From Actinomycetota bacterium (GTDB lineage Bacteria > Actinomycetota > Acidimicrobiia > IMCC26256 > VFJJ01), in assembly GCA_009886115.1 (NCBI GenBank), contig VFJJ01000187.1, positions 1 to 50,891 on the forward strand: a stretch of DNA of 50,891 bases, written 5' to 3'. This document shows positions 39,544 to 47,346 of the stretch, one piece after another. Both the position numbers and the translations under genes were made by a program. Below the pieces are notes generated by a model. The model was not told the DNA's origin and did not search any database. It saw only the letters and a program-made list of their open reading frames with translations. Position 1 is the stretch's first letter, and the number at the start of each line of letters is the position of its first letter.

Positions 39544-40836
39544 TCAGCGAGCGGTCCCGAGGAAGAGCGCGTCGGCGATCGCGGCCAGACCGCGGAGGTC
39601 GTGGACGTCGGCATCGGTCTGGGGGACCGTGAGCACGAGGTCGGGAGCGCCCGCGAGCTCCGACCGCAGCTCGGCCTCACGTTTCGCGACCACCGAGAAG
39701 TTCCGGTACGACTCGGCCAGGGTCGCGAGGAGTCGCTCGGTGCGGGCCACCTCGGCCAGCGCGGGCTCCCCGGTGTGCGCCAGGGCCTCGGCGATCGCCC
39801 GTCCATCATCGATGAAGCGCCGAGCAGCCTCCTCACCCGCGGGCTCGACCAGCGCCGTCGAGAGCGTCTTGTTGAGCACCAGCGCTCCGATGGGCAGATC
39901 TCGCTCGGCCAACGCGGCGAGGAAGAACTCAGCCTCCTGCAGCGGCGCCGATTCCAGCGTGGAGACCACCGCGAACGTCGTCCGGCGATCGCGCAGGAGA
40001 CGCTCGACCGCATGGGCCCGTTCGACGAAGCCGTCGTACATCGTCTGGAAGTTCACGAAGAACTCGGCGATGTCCTCGAGGAACTGGCTGCCCAGGATGC
40101 GGTCGGCCACCTGGTAGAAGGGGCGGCTGGCCAGGTTGACGAGCCGAGCGCCCCGACGGCCGCCGATTCGGTACGGCACCGTGAGCCATCGCAGCAGCCG
40201 GCCGCCGAAGAACTCGGCCATGCGCTGAGGAGCGTCGAGGAAGTCGATGGCGTTGCGGGTCGGGGGCGTGTCGACGACGATCAGGTCGTATCGTCCGGCG
40301 CTGTGGAGCTCGTGGAGACGCTCCATGGCGATGTAGTCGTGGCTCTGCACGAAGCGCGCCGTGATGTTGCGGTACAAGGGGTTCTCGAGGATCCGGTAGG
40401 CCGTCGCCTCATCGGGCGAATGGCGCAGCACCAAGGCGTCCCACGACTGCTTGGTGTCGAGCATGGCCGCCCACAGCTCACCTCGGACCTCGATCCCGGC
40501 TGCGGCCAGGATCTCGGGCGAGACGCGCCGTTCGACGTTGCCCAGCCCACCCCGCAAGCCGAGCGCGTCCGCCAGCCGCTTGGCCGGATCGACCGTGAGC
40601 ACGAGCACGCGTCCGCCGAGATGCGTGGCCGCCCCGAGCGCGGTCGCGGCGGCGATGGTCGTCTTGCCAACTCCCCCGGAGCCGCAGAACACCACCACCT
40701 CCTTGGCGGCCAGGAGCGGCTCGAGCCCCGCGACACGAGACCGGGCACTGGGCGAGGGACGCTCGCGTCGAGCCTGACGTGAAGGTGAAGGAGTACGCCG
40801 GGTCGCCGATGCGCTGGATCGCCGGGGCGTCGCCAT
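39544..40836 (-). CDS. ArsA/Get3-family ATPase, BagB/Rv3680-like
   Basis: A 430-residue ArsA-like ATPase. After a basic low-complexity N-terminus (residues 1-35) comes the deviant Walker A FCGSGGVGKTTIAAATALGA, the signal-transduction motif VLTVDPAKRLADALGL, and the Walker B region YDLIVVDTPPTRNAIDFLDA. Arsenite-binding cysteines are not evident. It pairs with the next upstream ATPase gene by a one-base TGATG overlap; the pair resembles mycobacterial Rv3679-Rv3680, reported to act together in protection against nitric oxide and glycerol-derived stress. Both proteins probably form one heteromeric complex. Confidence 0.88.
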   Translation of the reverse strand: MATPRRSSASATRRTPSPSRQARRERPSPSARSRVAGLEPLLAAKEVVVFCGSGGVGKTTIAAATALGAATHLGGRVLVLTVDPAKRLADALGLRGGLGNVERRVSPEILAAAGIEVRGELWAAMLDTKQSWDALVLRHSPDEATAYRILENPLYRNITARFVQSHDYIAMERLHELHSAGRYDLIVVDTPPTRNAIDFLDAPQRMAEFFGGRLLRWLTVPYRIGGRRGARLVNLASRPFYQVADRILGSQFLEDIAEFFVNFQTMYDGFVERAHAVERLLRDRRTTFAVVSTLESAPLQEAEFFLAALAERDLPIGALVLNKTLSTALVEPAGEEAARRFIDDGRAIAEALAHTGEPALAEVARTERLLATLAESYRNFSVVAKREAELRSELAGAPDLVLTVPQTDADVHDLRGLAAIADALFLGTAR

Positions 40837-41840
40837 CAGATCCCCAGCTCGTCGCCGATCGCCTCGGCGATGAGGCGCGTCACCCGGATACCGGCGGACC
40901 GCACGAACAGCTCGGGCAGATACAGCTTCGGGAGATCGATCGCCTCGTGCAGCCGGGTGAGATGGGCGGCCCGACTGCGGCGCAGCGCCACGGCCAGGCG
41001 CCCGGCCGCGATCACCGAGCTCGCTCCCGGACCGGCCCGATCTCGGAGCACCGCGCCCGCAGGCTCCTCGGCGAGCGCGCCGAACAGCACCTCGTCGGCC
41101 CGGTGGAGCAACTCCGGCAGCACCCGGTTCACGAACACCACCCCGAGAGGGACCTCGAGCTCGTCACGAACCCGGGCGATGAGCTCGATGGTCTCGGCAA
41201 CGGGCATCTCCTCGGGCGTCACGACCACGTTGAGGGCCGTGATCTCGGGATCGGCCAGCAGCGCCTGGAGCCATCCGGTCTGGTCGCTGACCGAGCCCAT
41301 CCGCACCAGCCCGCCGATCGCCTCGGGAGCGCCCAGTTGCGCGACCACGTGACCCGAGGCCGCGGCGTCGACGATCACGAGATCCCACGGCGCCCGTCCC
41401 TCGATCGACTCGCGAACCTCCCAGCCGATCTTGCCGATCGTGAGGATCTCCTTGACGCCGGGTGCCGCGTTGGCGACGAAGTCGAACATCGAGGCGATGG
41501 GGCCGATGCGCCCCACCATCGGGACCCGCAGGTTGAGCTTCAGGTACTCGCGCAGCGACGCCTCGGTGTCGATCGTCATGACCGAGATCCCCCGAGCCAC
41601 CTCCACGGGCTCGAAGCCCACCCGGGCGTGCTCGAAGAGATCGGTGAGATCGCCCTTGGCGTCGACCTCGACGACGAGCACACGCTTGCCCCGCTGGGCC
41701 GCCAAGTGGGCCAGGCCCGCGGCAACGGTGCTCTTGCCCACCCCGCCCTTGCCCGTGACGACGAGCAGCCGGCGATCGAGCAGCCCCGATCCGGCGGGGC
41801 CGCCGTGGGGCCCTCGTCGAGGTGGCGTTCGGGTCGACAC
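40836..41840 (-). CDS. ArsA/Get3-family ATPase, BagA/Rv3679-like
   Basis: A 334-residue partner ATPase. It has the deviant Walker A VTGKGGVGKSTVAAGLAHLA near residue 25, VEVDAKGDLTDLFEH, and the Walker B WDLVIVDAAASGH, where the second motif differs from BagB-like DTPPT. Rv3679-like proteins show the same AAASGH segment. The start is uncertain: GTG at 41840 leaves a 46-bp gap to the DUF3107 gene but lacks a ribosome site, and longer frames run into that gene. The stop overlaps the start of the second ATPase. Confidence 0.85.
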   Translation of the reverse strand: MSTRTPPRRGPHGGPAGSGLLDRRLLVVTGKGGVGKSTVAAGLAHLAAQRGKRVLVVEVDAKGDLTDLFEHARVGFEPVEVARGISVMTIDTEASLREYLKLNLRVPMVGRIGPIASMFDFVANAAPGVKEILTIGKIGWEVRESIEGRAPWDLVIVDAAASGHVVAQLGAPEAIGGLVRMGSVSDQTGWLQALLADPEITALNVVVTPEEMPVAETIELIARVRDELEVPLGVVFVNRVLPELLHRADEVLFGALAEEPAGAVLRDRAGPGASSVIAAGRLAVALRRSRAAHLTRLHEAIDLPKLYLPELFVRSAGIRVTRLIAEAIGDELGI

Positions 41841-41886
41841 GCGAGCCGGACGGGGCTGCGCCGCCGGGCTGGGACGGTCCGCGTGC

Positions 41887-42117
41887 CTAGCTCGCGCCGA
41901 ACCCGACCTTCTTGCGGTCACGTTCGGCGTCGATCTCGACGTACGCGATCTTGTCGACCGGAATGCCCGACCGGTTGCCGTGCTTGTCGTGGAGCCAGAG
42001 CACCGAGCTCGCCCCCGACACGGCCGACTCGATCGCCGCGACCTGCTCGACGCCGTCGCCATCGACGTCGACCCGGATCTCCTTGGGTGAATGGATGATG
42101 CCGATCCTGATCTCCAC
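41887..42117 (-). CDS. DUF3107-family small protein
   Basis: A 76-residue protein matching the actinobacterial DUF3107 family (mycobacterial Rv3208A/TB9.4): MEIRIGIIHSPKEIRVDVDG at the N-terminus and VDKIAYVEIDAERDRKKVGF at the C-terminus. Function unknown; a small alpha/beta fold is expected. The GTG at 42117 has GGGAG 8 nt upstream. It is the first gene of a minus-strand unit that continues through two ArsA-like ATPases, thiI and pdtaS. Confidence 0.88.
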   Translation of the reverse strand: MEIRIGIIHSPKEIRVDVDGDGVEQVAAIESAVSGASSVLWLHDKHGNRSGIPVDKIAYVEIDAERDRKKVGFGAS

Positions 42118-43173: not shown

Positions 43174-44283
43174 TCACCTGATCTTCAGCTCCGGACGGAA
43201 GCGCTTGCGCGGCGCGAGATCCTCGTCGACCGCACGAGCGATCTCACGAAACAACGCGGCCGGCTCCGAGTCGGGGGCGGTCGCCGTGATCGGTCGACCG
43301 TTGTCGCCACCCTCGCGCAGGGCGGGCACGAGCGGGATCCGACCGAGCAACGGAACCTCGAGACGCTGGGCGAGATCCTGGCCCCCGCCCGAGCCGAAGA
43401 TCTCGTAGGCCGTGCCGTCGTCGCCGCGGAACCACGACATGTTCTCGACCACGCCGATCACCGTGAGCCGGACCTTCTTCGCCATGGCCGCGGCGCGTTG
43501 GGCAACCGTCTGCGCAGCGGCCTGGGGCGTCGTCACCACGATGACCTCGGCCCGGGGCAGGAACTGCGCCATCGACAGGGCGACGTCGCCGGTCCCCGGG
43601 GGCATGTCGATCACGAGGTAGTTGGGCTCGTTCCAGTACACGTCGGTGATGAACTGCTCCAACGCCTTGTGCAGCATGGGTCCCCGCCACACGACGCCCT
43701 CGGCTTCCGACGCGAAGAATCCGATCGAGATGTAGCGCACGCCATAGGCCTCGGGCGGGATGATCACCCGGTCGATGGCGTGCGGGGCCCGGGCCACGCC
43801 GAGCATCCGGGGAATCGAGAATCCCCACACGTCGGCGTCGAGCACGGCGACCTTCTTGCCCCGCTGGGCCAAGGCCACGGCCAGGTTCACGGTGACCGAC
43901 GACTTCCCCACGCCGCCCTTGCCCGACGAGACGGCGATCACACGGGTGCGGGAATCGGTGAAGGGGTTGGCCCGGGCGCCCTTCTCGTCGACGGGGCTCA
44001 GCCGAGCCGCCAGCGCCTTCTCCTGCTCCTCGTCGAGGTCGTCGAACTCCACCTCGACCCGGTCGATCCCGACGACCGACGCCAGTGCCCGTCGCACCTG
44101 GGCGCCAGCCTCGTCGGCCCAGGTGTCGGTGGGCACCGACACGGTGAGCGTGACCGTCGCCGTCGCCTTGGAGACCTCGATGCTCTCGACGAGGCCCAGC
44201 TCGACGAGCGACCGTCCGAGCACCGGATCGGGCACGGATCGCAGCGCGTCGAGCAGCTCGGTCTCGGACGGGGCAGGCGACAT
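43174..44283 (-). CDS. mrp: Mrp/ApbC-type Fe-S cluster carrier P-loop ATPase
   Basis: A 369-residue Mrp protein: N-terminal MIP18/DUF59-like domain (LLDALRSVPDPVLGRSLVEL, 1-90), the deviant Walker A SSGKGGVGKSSVTVNLA near residue 115, LDADVWGFSIPRMLG, and VIDMPPGTGDVALSMAQFLP. The usual CxxC cluster-binding pair near the C-terminal half is not visible as CPHC; the matching segment reads ENMSWFRGDDG, so cluster binding may differ from the E. coli protein. It probably transfers Fe-S clusters. GGAG lies 7 nt before the ATG at 44283. Divergent from the SufR-like regulator. Confidence 0.9.
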   Translation of the reverse strand: MSPAPSETELLDALRSVPDPVLGRSLVELGLVESIEVSKATATVTLTVSVPTDTWADEAGAQVRRALASVVGIDRVEVEFDDLDEEQEKALAARLSPVDEKGARANPFTDSRTRVIAVSSGKGGVGKSSVTVNLAVALAQRGKKVAVLDADVWGFSIPRMLGVARAPHAIDRVIIPPEAYGVRYISIGFFASEAEGVVWRGPMLHKALEQFITDVYWNEPNYLVIDMPPGTGDVALSMAQFLPRAEVIVVTTPQAAAQTVAQRAAAMAKKVRLTVIGVVENMSWFRGDDGTAYEIFGSGGGQDLAQRLEVPLLGRIPLVPALREGGDNGRPITATAPDSEPAALFREIARAVDEDLAPRKRFRPELKIR

Positions 44284-44335
44284 GGGACGCTCCGACGGGG
44301 TGATGAGGACAACGGGCGGGATTTCCACTACGGCG

Positions 44336-44352
44336 ATAGGTACAATACCGAT
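44336..44352. promoter_or_regulatory. inverted-repeat operator overlapping regulator -10 box
   Basis: ATAGGTACAATACCGAT is an inverted repeat (GGTA-CAA-TACC core, flanking AT/AT pairs, one mismatch). It contains TACAAT (44341-44346), a near-perfect -10 hexamer 6 nt before the GTG at 44353, so the regulator gene is probably leaderless and the site ideally placed for autorepression. Confidence 0.6.
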
Positions 44353-45108
44353 GTGCACGACCATCTCCCCCGCTCGGGTCCGTCCTCTCCCGGGTCGCAC
44401 ACCGAGCCCCGTCACCTCGACCACGACGAGTTCGCCTCGTACGTGACGGCGGTCACCAGCGCGTTCGGCGATCCGACCCGGCGCGAGATCTACCTCTACG
44501 CGAGGGAGCCGGGAGTCGGCGTCACCGCGGCCGACGTCGCCCGCCACTTCGCGTTGCACCCCAACGTGGCCCGGCATCATCTCGACAAGCTGGCAGCGGG
44601 GGGCTATCTCGACGTCGACCTGGCCCGCACCGAGAGTGCCGGTCGCCCCTCGAAGCGGTACCGCTCGGTCGCTCCTCTGCAGACCCTCGACTTCACCCCC
44701 CGGCGCGACGATCTCATCGCCATCCTCCTCATCCGCACGATCGAGCGTCTCGATCCCCTGGAGGCGTCGAAGCTGGCCGAGGAGGTCGGATTCGAGTACG
44801 GGACGGCGTTGGCGGCCCGCATGTCACCGCTCGAGGGACAGCATTCGGTCAAGTCGGCGATGGCGGCCGTGGCCGACGCGCTCACCGCGCACGGCTTCGC
44901 GGCCCACACCGAAACCGTCAACGACGGGCTGCGGATCGTCTCCGAAGCCTGCCCGTTCGGCGCATCTGCGCAACGCTTCCCCCACGTGATGTGCGCCATC
45001 GACCGCGGGATGGTGCGGGGCATGCTCTCGGGCCTCTACGGCGACACGCAGCCCCTGCAGTCGGAGACCCGCCACTCCGGGGCCGACCACTGTGTCACCC
45101 TGGTCTGA
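44353..45108 (+). CDS. SufR-like winged-helix regulator (putative Fe-S sensor)
   Basis: A 251-residue regulator with an N-terminal ArsR/DeoR-like winged helix (FGDPTRREIYLYAREPGVGV; HPNVARHHLDKLAAGGYLDV; SAGRPSKRYR). The C-terminal half has cysteines that could hold an Fe-S cluster: SEACPFG, VMCAIDRGMVRGML and DHCVTLV, the same layout as SufR-type repressors of SUF operons. It sits divergent from mrp and 41 bp before a cysteine desulfurase-like gene, fitting control of Fe-S assembly (inference). Start GTG 44353: TACAAT 6 nt upstream and no ribosome site suggest a leaderless mRNA. Confidence 0.85.
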   Translation: MHDHLPRSGPSSPGSHTEPRHLDHDEFASYVTAVTSAFGDPTRREIYLYAREPGVGVTAADVARHFALHPNVARHHLDKLAAGGYLDVDLARTESAGRPSKRYRSVAPLQTLDFTPRRDDLIAILLIRTIERLDPLEASKLAEEVGFEYGTALAARMSPLEGQHSVKSAMAAVADALTAHGFAAHTETVNDGLRIVSEACPFGASAQRFPHVMCAIDRGMVRGMLSGLYGDTQPLQSETRHSGADHCVTLV

Positions 45109-45149: not shown

Positions 45150-46364
45150 ATGGCTCGCGTCTACCTCGATCACACGTCCACCACACCGCTGCGACCCGTG
45201 GCCTTCGAGGCGATGCTGCCCTACTTGCGCGAGCACATCGCCGATCCCGGTCGGGTGTACCACGAGGGCCGCACCACCCGGGTGGCGATCGAGGACGCCC
45301 GCGAGCAGATCGCTGCCTTCGTGGGCGCCCGGCCCCGCGAGGTCGTGTTCACCTCGGGCGGGACGGAGTCGGTCGTCACGGCGTTGCGCGGCGGCTTCGC
45401 TCGTGGTCTCGACGCTCGTGGTCTCGACGCTCGTGGTCTCGACGCCCGCGGTCTCGACGCCCGCGGTCTCGGCCACGTGGTCACCACGGCGGTCGAGCAC
45501 TCGTCGGTGCTCGAGACAGCCCGGGCGCTCACGGGCGCCGAGCTCACGGTCGTGGGCGTCGACCGCAGCGGCCGGTTCGACGCGGCCGAGGTGATCGACG
45601 CGATCCGCCACGACACGGCGATCGTCAGCGTGCAGACGGCGAATCACGAAGTCGGCACGCTCCAACCGGTGGCCGAGGTGGCGGCGGCGTGTCGAAGCCG
45701 GGGCGTGCTGGTGCATATCGACGCGTGCGCCTCGCTCGGCCAGGTGGCGCTGGCGTTCGCCGATCTCGGAGCCGATCTGTGCTCGATCGCCTCGCACACC
45801 CTGGGCGGCCCCAAGGGGGTGGGTGCCATCCTGGTGCGACGGGGCCTGCGCATCCCGCCGCTGATGCTCGGCGGCGCCCAGGAGCGCGGGCGCAGGGCGG
45901 GCATCGAGAACCTCCCGGCCATCGCCGGCTTCGGAGCGGCCGTGGGCGAGCTGGCCGCCACCGTGTCACCGTCCGACGGCCGGAACCGCCTCGAGCTCGA
46001 AGCCGCCAGGGCCCGCGACCGCACCGACCGGCTGGCACGCGGCGCGCTCGCCGTGGCCGGGGTCGAGCGGTACGGCCCGAACGACCCCACCGGGCGGCTC
46101 CCCAACCTGGTGTGCCTGGGGATCGCCGGCGTCGAGGCCGAGCCGATCCTGCTCGGGCTCGATCAGCACGGGGTGGCCGTGCACTCGGGGTCGTCGTGCT
46201 CTTCCGAGGTGCTCGAGCCCTCGCCGGTGCTCGCCGCCATGGGTGTCGACGCCGACCGATCCTTGCGGGTGAGCGTCGGCTGGTCGAGCGTCGACTCCGA
46301 CATCGACCGTTTCCTCGAGGCCTTTCCCGACGTGGTCGACCGGCTCCGCTCGTTGCGCACCTGA
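45150..46364 (+). CDS. cysteine desulfurase-like protein lacking the PLP lysine
   Basis: A 404-residue NifS/IscS-fold protein: YLDHTSTTPLRPVAFEAMLP, VVFTSGGTESVVTALRG, TTAVEHSSVLETA, TANHEVGTLQPVAEVA, and the sulfur-accepting loop Cys350 in HSGSSCSSEVLEP. The Schiff-base motif SxHK-x2-GPKG reads SHTLGGPKGVG, so Lys is Thr217, and the Gln of the DAxQ motif (usual PLP contact) is Ala in HIDACASLGQ. A five-fold RGLDA repeat extends a loop near residues 84-108. Either PLP is bound without the lysine, another Lys serves, or the protein is non-catalytic. It follows the SufR-like gene by 41 bp. Start ATG 45150 matches the family. Confidence 0.85.
   Translation: MARVYLDHTSTTPLRPVAFEAMLPYLREHIADPGRVYHEGRTTRVAIEDAREQIAAFVGARPREVVFTSGGTESVVTALRGGFARGLDARGLDARGLDARGLDARGLGHVVTTAVEHSSVLETARALTGAELTVVGVDRSGRFDAAEVIDAIRHDTAIVSVQTANHEVGTLQPVAEVAAACRSRGVLVHIDACASLGQVALAFADLGADLCSIASHTLGGPKGVGAILVRRGLRIPPLMLGGAQERGRRAGIENLPAIAGFGAAVGELAATVSPSDGRNRLELEAARARDRTDRLARGALAVAGVERYGPNDPTGRLPNLVCLGIAGVEAEPILLGLDQHGVAVHSGSSCSSEVLEPSPVLAAMGVDADRSLRVSVGWSSVDSDIDRFLEAFPDVVDRLRSLRT
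45399..45473. repeat. 15-bp tandem repeat inside desulfurase-like gene
   Basis: Five tandem 15-bp units: three identical GCTCGTGGTCTCGAC copies (45399-45443) then two GCCCGCGGTCTCG variants. It is in frame and encodes ARGLD repeats in a loop where relatives are short. Confidence 0.9.
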
Positions 46365-46389
46365 GCCCCACCCGCCCTCGACTCTGCGG

Positions 46390-46421
46390 CCACACAGCCA
46401 CACAGCCACACAGCCACACAG
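46390..46421. repeat. octanucleotide tandem repeat (CCACACAG)4
   Basis: Four perfect copies of CCACACAG lie in the 61-bp spacer between the convergent desulfurase-like and LysM genes. The sequence is non-coding. Confidence 0.9.
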
Positions 46422-46425
46422 CCGC

Positions 46426-47346
46426 TCAATCACCCAGCCGCTCCGGGACGGGCACCAGCTCGAACACCTGACCGGGGAAGATCAGGTCGGGGTTCGACGG
46501 GTCGGCGAGCAGCGGACGCACGTGGTCGACGAGCGCGCTCCAGTAGACCGCGACCTCCCGGTCCGACGGCGCCGCGCCCCACGCCGACGCCAGGGTCTGC
46601 TCGGCGATCGCCCACAGGTGATCGCCTCGTTCGACTTCCCAGACCTCGCCCACGGCCAGGAGATCGACGGGCGCGGGCGCTGGCCCCTCACCGTCCCCGA
46701 CGCCCCGGACGTCCCCGGCACGCCCGACGGACGCGATGGCCGAGAGCTCGAGCGGACTCCGAGGGGAAGCCCCGGCTGCGATGGCGGCCTCCCCACCCGC
46801 GGCAGCTCCGTCGCCCGAAACCTCGATCGCCGCATCGGGATCGGACACCTCGTCGACGACGGTCATCACCTCGATCAGCGGATCGGGCGCATTCGGGGCG
46901 TCCAGTCCGTCGGGATGCTCGACCTCCTGGGCCGTTGCGGCGCGGGCGCTCACGGCGGCCATCGAGCCCACGGCCGAGACGGTGAACGTGGCCCCGACGA
47001 CCAGCTCGACGAGGCGCCGGGCCCAGAGAGGGGTGATGCCGCGGGCGAGGGCGCTCGAGCGGGTCGAGCACGTCAGCACGGCGAGCGCGTGTGCTGTCAG
47101 AACGATCGTCAGGTATGCGCCGAGCGCCACGACCGCCAAGCGCCCCAAGGAGAACATGGCGGTCACGGCACCCTGTCGATCGAGCCACGACATCCATCGC
47201 GCCGGGTCGACGCCCGGACCGTCGAGGCCCATCGGCGCGCCTGTTGCCAAGGCGACCGTGACGATGGCGATCCCGGCCGCCCACAGGCCGATCGCTCGGG
47301 CCCCGATGCACTCTCGGCATTTTTGATGTCTTGCTATTGTTTTCAT
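46426..47346 (-). CDS. membrane-anchored LysM-like protein
   Basis: A 306-residue protein with hydrophobic segments near residues 18-37 (IGLWAAGIAIVTVALATGAP), 62-92 (FSLGRLAVVALGAYLTIVLT) and 112-135, a long Ala/Gly/Pro/Asp-rich linker, and a C-terminal LysM-like module (WEVERGDHLWAIAEQTLASA, then NPDLIFPGQVFELVPVP). LysM binds peptidoglycan. It is divergent from the WXG100 genes and could anchor the secretion system to the wall (inference). The first residues (MKTIARHQKCREC) are encoded in unusually AT-rich DNA. ATG start at 47346. Confidence 0.75.
   Translation of the reverse strand: MKTIARHQKCRECIGARAIGLWAAGIAIVTVALATGAPMGLDGPGVDPARWMSWLDRQGAVTAMFSLGRLAVVALGAYLTIVLTAHALAVLTCSTRSSALARGITPLWARRLVELVVGATFTVSAVGSMAAVSARAATAQEVEHPDGLDAPNAPDPLIEVMTVVDEVSDPDAAIEVSGDGAAAGGEAAIAAGASPRSPLELSAIASVGRAGDVRGVGDGEGPAPAPVDLLAVGEVWEVERGDHLWAIAEQTLASAWGAAPSDREVAVYWSALVDHVRPLLADPSNPDLIFPGQVFELVPVPERLGD

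Follow-up and report, generated by a model that had tools for sequence, protein, structure and literature searches.

The locus

The window analysed here is a stretch of 50,891 nucleotides (contig VFJJ01000187.1, assembly GCA_009886115.1) from a bacterium of the class Acidimicrobiia. On its forward strand, positions 45150 to 46364 encode, from an ATG start, a 404-amino-acid protein with the IscS/NifS fold and without the lysine that forms the Schiff base with PLP. The Pfam model Aminotran_5 matches nearly the whole open reading frame (E 1.2e-54), and the AlphaFold model (pLDDT 94, 96 homologues as input) aligns with IscS structures at Z ~50 (360–372 residues aligned, rmsd 1.4–1.6), so that by both Pfam and structure match the protein has the class V aminotransferase fold. 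The closest fold match is IscS of Mycobacterium tuberculosis (4ISY; Z 51.1, 40% identity, 366 residues aligned). The best NCBIfam models are those of NifS-type and IscS-type desulfurases, with scores below the equivalog cut-off in both cases (321 bits against 531 for NifS, 229 bits against 643 for IscS).

Alignment to solved cysteine desulfurases confirms the residue assignments of the preliminary description of this locus: Thr217 (codon ACC, 45798–45800, in SHTLGGPKG) occupies the position of the Schiff-base lysine, Ala194 (45729–45731, in DACASLG) that of the glutamine of the DAxQ motif, and the catalytic, persulfide-carrying cysteine of the flexible loop is intact as Cys350 (46197–46199). 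As for the other PLP contacts, which in E. coli IscS are Asp180, Asn155, His104, Gln183 and Thr243' (the last contributed to the PLP phosphate by the neighbouring subunit), the window protein has Asp191, Asn165 and His117, and carries Ala in place of the Gln and Ile in place of Thr243'. T72, H117 and H216, presumably the equivalents of the canonical T76, H104 and H205, are all present, as is Arg373 (46266–46268) at the position of the substrate-carboxylate arginine. The protein thus shares the Cys loop, the Asp and the Asn with canonical IscS/NifS and differs from it in having neither the Lys nor the Gln, and in carrying Cys322 (46113–46115; Asn, Ser or His in the outgroup) and His345 (46182–46184; Ser or Ala in the outgroup), the latter five residues N-terminal of Cys350.

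The sole lysine of the window protein is K222, in GGPKG. We considered it as a replacement Schiff-base lysine and rejected it: position 222 varies among the 100 subfamily members (K in 36, P in 19, A in 15, R in 8, T in 7 and L in 6), and three members that lack the Schiff-base lysine (L038, L123 and L124) contain no lysine at all, so that no substitute is apparent. The gene also contains an in-frame 15-bp tandem repeat (45398–45482, forward strand; 5.7 units encoding GLDAR) in a low-confidence loop, which homologues do not have. Directly past the stop codon, at 46389–46439, lie 4.4 perfect copies of an 8-bp repeat, GCCACACA.

The regulator and mrp

Both neighbours named in the preliminary description, a SufR-like regulator and mrp, are present, and the Fe-S-related setting that it proposed is borne out. 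Upstream on the same strand lies a gene for an ArsR-type winged-helix regulator with three invariant cysteines (44353–45108; start GTG at 44353 or later); divergent from it, on the reverse strand, lies a gene for an Mrp/ApbC-type Fe-S carrier ATPase with an N-terminal FeS_assembly_P domain (43174–44580, true start probably near 44300). This arrangement is widespread: in 93 of 101 loci the regulator gene lies ahead of the desulfurase-like gene in the same orientation, at a distance of 120 bases or less in 89, and mrp is divergent on the regulator's far side nearly everywhere, including at loci whose desulfurase-like protein lacks the lysine. At the remaining 8 loci, where no regulator adjoins it, the desulfurase-like gene is present and mostly still divergent from mrp; the regulator is therefore not an obligate partner.

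The winged helix of the regulator is of the HTH_20 type, and C185, C199 and C232 are present in 93 of 93 regulators. It has the winged helix and three conserved cysteines expected of SufR; against the SufR model TIGR02702 it scores 18.2 bits (cut-off 178.8, not reached). Structure comparison of its model gives weak hits to ArsR repressors, in the N-terminal half, and to TRAPP/BcsD-type folds. In M. tuberculosis SufR (Rv1460) the three cysteines C203, C216 and C244 are needed for the Fe-S cluster (PMC6034842). The window regulator resembles Rv1460 in its winged helix and in three invariant cysteines close to the C-terminus, and differs in their spacing (14/33 as compared to 13/28) and in being divergent from mrp rather than adjoining suf genes.

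Several further observations concern these neighbours. A second mrp, divergent from a three-Cys regulator (CPF...C...C) and with no desulfurase, is found on another contig of the same genome (C73; L201:2892-4886), showing that the mrp–regulator pair also exists alone. Two ArsA/GET3-type ATPases resembling mycobacterial BagB and BagA are encoded near mrp (39544–42062, reverse strand), and ArsA/GET3-like reading frames recur close to mrp in some members of the class. In part of the class, CcmG-like thioredoxin and CcmF-like reading frames, named by eye, recur ~3–4 kb downstream of the desulfurase-like gene (L144:1-1900 and similar loci).

A distinct subfamily in Acidimicrobiia

Searches recovered homologues of the window protein in 50 of 58 genomes from the window's order (E <= 1e-75) and in 100 of 395 from the class Acidimicrobiia (E <= 1e-80), usually as one copy per genome, and close relatives with named records come from Acidimicrobiia or Actinomycetota. 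In the tree the 100 members form one clade, apart from other NifS/IscS proteins. All 100 share D32, R35, C322, H345, C350 and E353; the corresponding residues in the other NifS/IscS proteins are N, S/G/A, N/S/H, S/A, C and, for the most part, G. Arg373 is likewise kept in every member. We found no literature on this subfamily in open-access sources.

The lysine has been lost repeatedly

The Schiff-base site is Lys in 84 of the 100 members, Thr in 8, Ser in 3, Pro in 2 and Arg in 3. The protein of the cultured isolate IMCC26256 (CP011489.1) is among those with Lys. The Thr, Ser and Pro states (13 members, the window protein included) are confined to the window's order; the three Arg-bearing proteins (L167, L168 and L186) come from other orders and have no lysine anywhere in their sequence. 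On the best tree at least five changes are needed to account for Thr, Ser and Pro, and seven if two changes to Arg are included, counts that give the number of changes and not their direction. The five fall on the window branch, on a six-species Thr clade, on a four-species Ser/Pro clade, and on L059 and L062, the forks around the window branch being poorly settled. A single clade of all 13 Lys-less members is rejected (AU p 0.006). Loss of the lysine is thus a recurrent event within this one subfamily.

A sequencing or assembly error at the single codon might be suspected in a source genome that is a 224-contig draft assembly, and the preliminary description had held that such an error would be implied if homologues all carried Lys. 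Most do, but Lys is absent from 12 further homologues, which belong to four other lineages, and another three have Arg. Moreover, ACC is two changes away from AAG/AAA, as are the codons ACT, TCG and CCG found at this site (ACG is one change away), and Thr, Ser or Pro occurs in several independent genomes. Poor assemblies are not the cause either, since the canonical IscS paralogues of the order have the lysine (HK) and the Gln in 30 of 30 cases. This recurrence across genomes refutes the error, to which we assign a negligible probability, and the absence of the lysine from the window protein is solid.

We also considered W218, next to the lost lysine, as a filler of the vacated pocket: it is found in 11 of 13 Lys-less members and in 3 of 87 others. 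Pocket filling is not established, because the comparison amounts to only two independent pairs on well-supported branches, or five on all branches. The window protein itself has Leu at position 218.

Apparent stepwise dismantling of the PLP site

Other parts of the PLP site have changed as well. The residue that corresponds to T243' (position 252 of the window protein) is Thr in 54 of 54 outgroup sequences as compared to 3 of 100 members. None of the 48 proteins used from the order has the DAxQ Gln, and many members from other orders lack it as well; by this distribution the Gln change is older than the loss of the lysine. Among the 13 Lys-less proteins, T72 is changed in 5, H216 in 4 and H117 in 3. 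All three equivalents are lost in L123 and L124, and H117 and H216 are lost in L059. Judged from the aligned residues, the losses appear to have followed an order: the T243' anchor, then the Gln, then the Lys, and then, in some members, T72, H117 or H216. This proposal is based on the identity of the changed residues and not on a p value: erosion at positions 72, 117 and 216 has no significance by independent pairs, and the enrichment in the pocket is descriptive only, because a few positions away from it (3, 376 and 384) vary about as often. Cys350, Arg373, Asn165, Asp191, D32, R35, C322, H345 and E353 are retained in 13 of 13 Lys-less proteins.

The functions of Asp191, Asn165 and Arg373 lie with PLP or the substrate, and their retention even without the lysine points to a possible remaining ability to bind PLP, PMP or an amino acid.

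The Lys-less genes are under purifying selection

For close pairs of genes in the same Lys-less state, dN/dS (Nei-Gojobori) is 0.103 (L125/L126), 0.113 (L123/L124) and 0.177 (L030/L127), as compared to 0.086–0.221 for Lys-bearing pairs; wider Lys-less pairs inside the Ser/Pro clade give 0.21–0.28. The root-to-tip length of Lys-less proteins shows no significant excess over the rest (p 0.14); that of the window copy is the shortest of all. The Lys-less genes are under purifying selection and are not decaying, in agreement with the preliminary description, which had called decay unlikely on the grounds of conservation and context. Drift of a redundant desulfurase whose activity had become dispensable would fit the progressive loss of PLP contacts, the canonical desulfurases elsewhere in the genome, the repeat expansion in the window copy and an in-frame stop in one relative (genome G057, locus L141). 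It is largely refuted by the dN/dS values of ~0.1–0.18; the absence of a significant rate excess, the kept invariants and synteny, and the short window branch also speak against it, and we consider it improbable.

Sulfur supply elsewhere in the genome

A second, canonical desulfurase, which the preliminary description had proposed to look for, is present: IscS is encoded on contig C138, and SufS together with SufU on contig C97. No IscU was found in the window genome, where the sole NifU_N match is the SufU adjoining SufS; 11 of 12 Lys-less relatives have one NifU_N match each, by a count of matches irrespective of gene setting. Canonical IscS is present in 12 of 13 Lys-less genomes.

This co-occurrence would fit a catalytically dead window protein that pairs with the cell's canonical IscS (or SufS) in a heterodimer and regulates it allosterically. 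IscS active sites are located at the dimer interface, and trypanosomatid deoxyhypusine synthase offers an example of activation by a dead paralogue (PMC3663545). However, identity between the window protein and the canonical paralogue is only ~42% and the genes are unlinked; furthermore, the Lys-bearing members would have to pair as well, or the partner would have to switch at every loss. We therefore give this arrangement little credence.

Comparison with Lys-less archaeal IscS

A studied precedent exists in Archaeoglobus fulgidus IscS (PDB 4EB5, 4EB7 and 4HVK; D199K mutant, 4R5F), in which the lysine is replaced (Lys199Asp) and no desulfurase activity is reported (PMC7585200), and which supplies a Cys ligand to the cluster on IscU (PMC7585200; PMC9769115). 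It shares with the window protein the IscS fold (Z 49–50 against the window model, 36–40% identity), the replaced Schiff-base lysine (Asp there, Thr here) with the catalytic Cys kept, Ala at the Gln of DAxQ, and a replaced T243' (Ser there, Ile here). It differs in having Leu at the site of Arg373, in being without D32, R35, C322, H345 and E353, and in lying outside the Acidimicrobiia clade; the lysine was lost in the window's subfamily independently. The partner differs too, being IscU in A. fulgidus, whereas the window genome has SufU beside SufS. As it encodes no IscU, the A. fulgidus mode is not literally transferable: the window protein matches this type in fold, missing Lys and retained Cys, and not in its partner. 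IscS1 of Methanosarcina acetivorans is likewise reported to have no catalytic Lys, with canonical copies present in the same genome (PMC7585200); it differs in being archaeal and paired with IscU1.

An apparent pseudo-desulfurase outside the subfamily is the NifS-like L112 (Endomicrobium sp.), in which Val stands in for the Lys, Cys for the Gln and Leu for the substrate Arg, and the catalytic Cys is retained.

The window protein could be a PLP enzyme that does without the Schiff base, holding PLP non-covalently through Asp191, Asn165, His117 and Thr72 and acting slowly, by way of an external aldimine, on cysteine or some other substrate. Asp191, Asn165 and Arg373 are found in all Lys-less members, T72, H117 and H216 in the window protein, and PLP is marked in the published structure figure of the Lys-less 4EB5 (PMC9769115). 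However, L123/L124 have lost all of these last three contacts and L059 two of them, and A. fulgidus IscS is reported inactive as a desulfurase; we regard such chemistry as unlikely. The preliminary description had offered a relay or scaffold and a PLP enzyme of new mechanism side by side; the former is now favoured, because more PLP contacts are lost while the Cys-loop invariants stay.

A possible non-catalytic role

The most likely reading, which we hold with middling confidence, is that the window protein is a pseudo-desulfurase: a non-catalytic, Cys-bearing Fe-S or sulfur ligand or relay for the regulator/Mrp locus. We infer the lack of desulfurase activity, the ligand or relay role and the partner alike. 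The IscS-fold homologue, presumably a dimer, would be unable to hold PLP by a Schiff base and therefore, we propose, would not release sulfur from cysteine. Cys350 of the flexible loop, with Cys322, His345, Glu353, Asp32 and Arg35, could instead act as a thiol/persulfide or as an Fe-S or metal ligand, and the protein would deliver, insert or sense sulfur or a cluster for the three-Cys regulator, whose gene shares the same apparent transcription unit, and for the divergent Mrp carrier. The sulfur would come from canonical IscS or from SufS–SufU elsewhere in the genome. Since the lysine was lost repeatedly while the gene, the sulfur-carrying Cys and the neighbours were kept, the job is probably independent of enzyme chemistry; the ancestral role of the subfamily may still be PLP catalysis, because most members (84 of 100) keep the lysine. 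More tentatively, the subfamily may have been remodelled several times, and in parallel, into PLP-free proteins in which C322, H345 and C350, with D32, R35 and E353, would hold or pass on an Fe-S cluster, a metal or a persulfide for the co-transcribed regulator and Mrp; together they would form a module, built around a dead desulfurase, that senses Fe-S status.

The A. fulgidus precedent and the recurrence of the loss within one subfamily both go beyond the preliminary description. Lys-less IscS was already known from a few archaea and explained through the IscU partner; the present case is one of parallel loss of the cofactor site in one bacterial subfamily, with Lys-bearing members alongside, a fixed regulator/Mrp locus and no IscU. 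In Acidimicrobiia, the annotation 'cysteine desulfurase' may be wrong for Lys-less copies. The natural series from Lys+/Gln+ through Lys+/Gln− and Lys−/Gln− to Lys− with further losses offers a direct test of a desulfurase's non-catalytic role.
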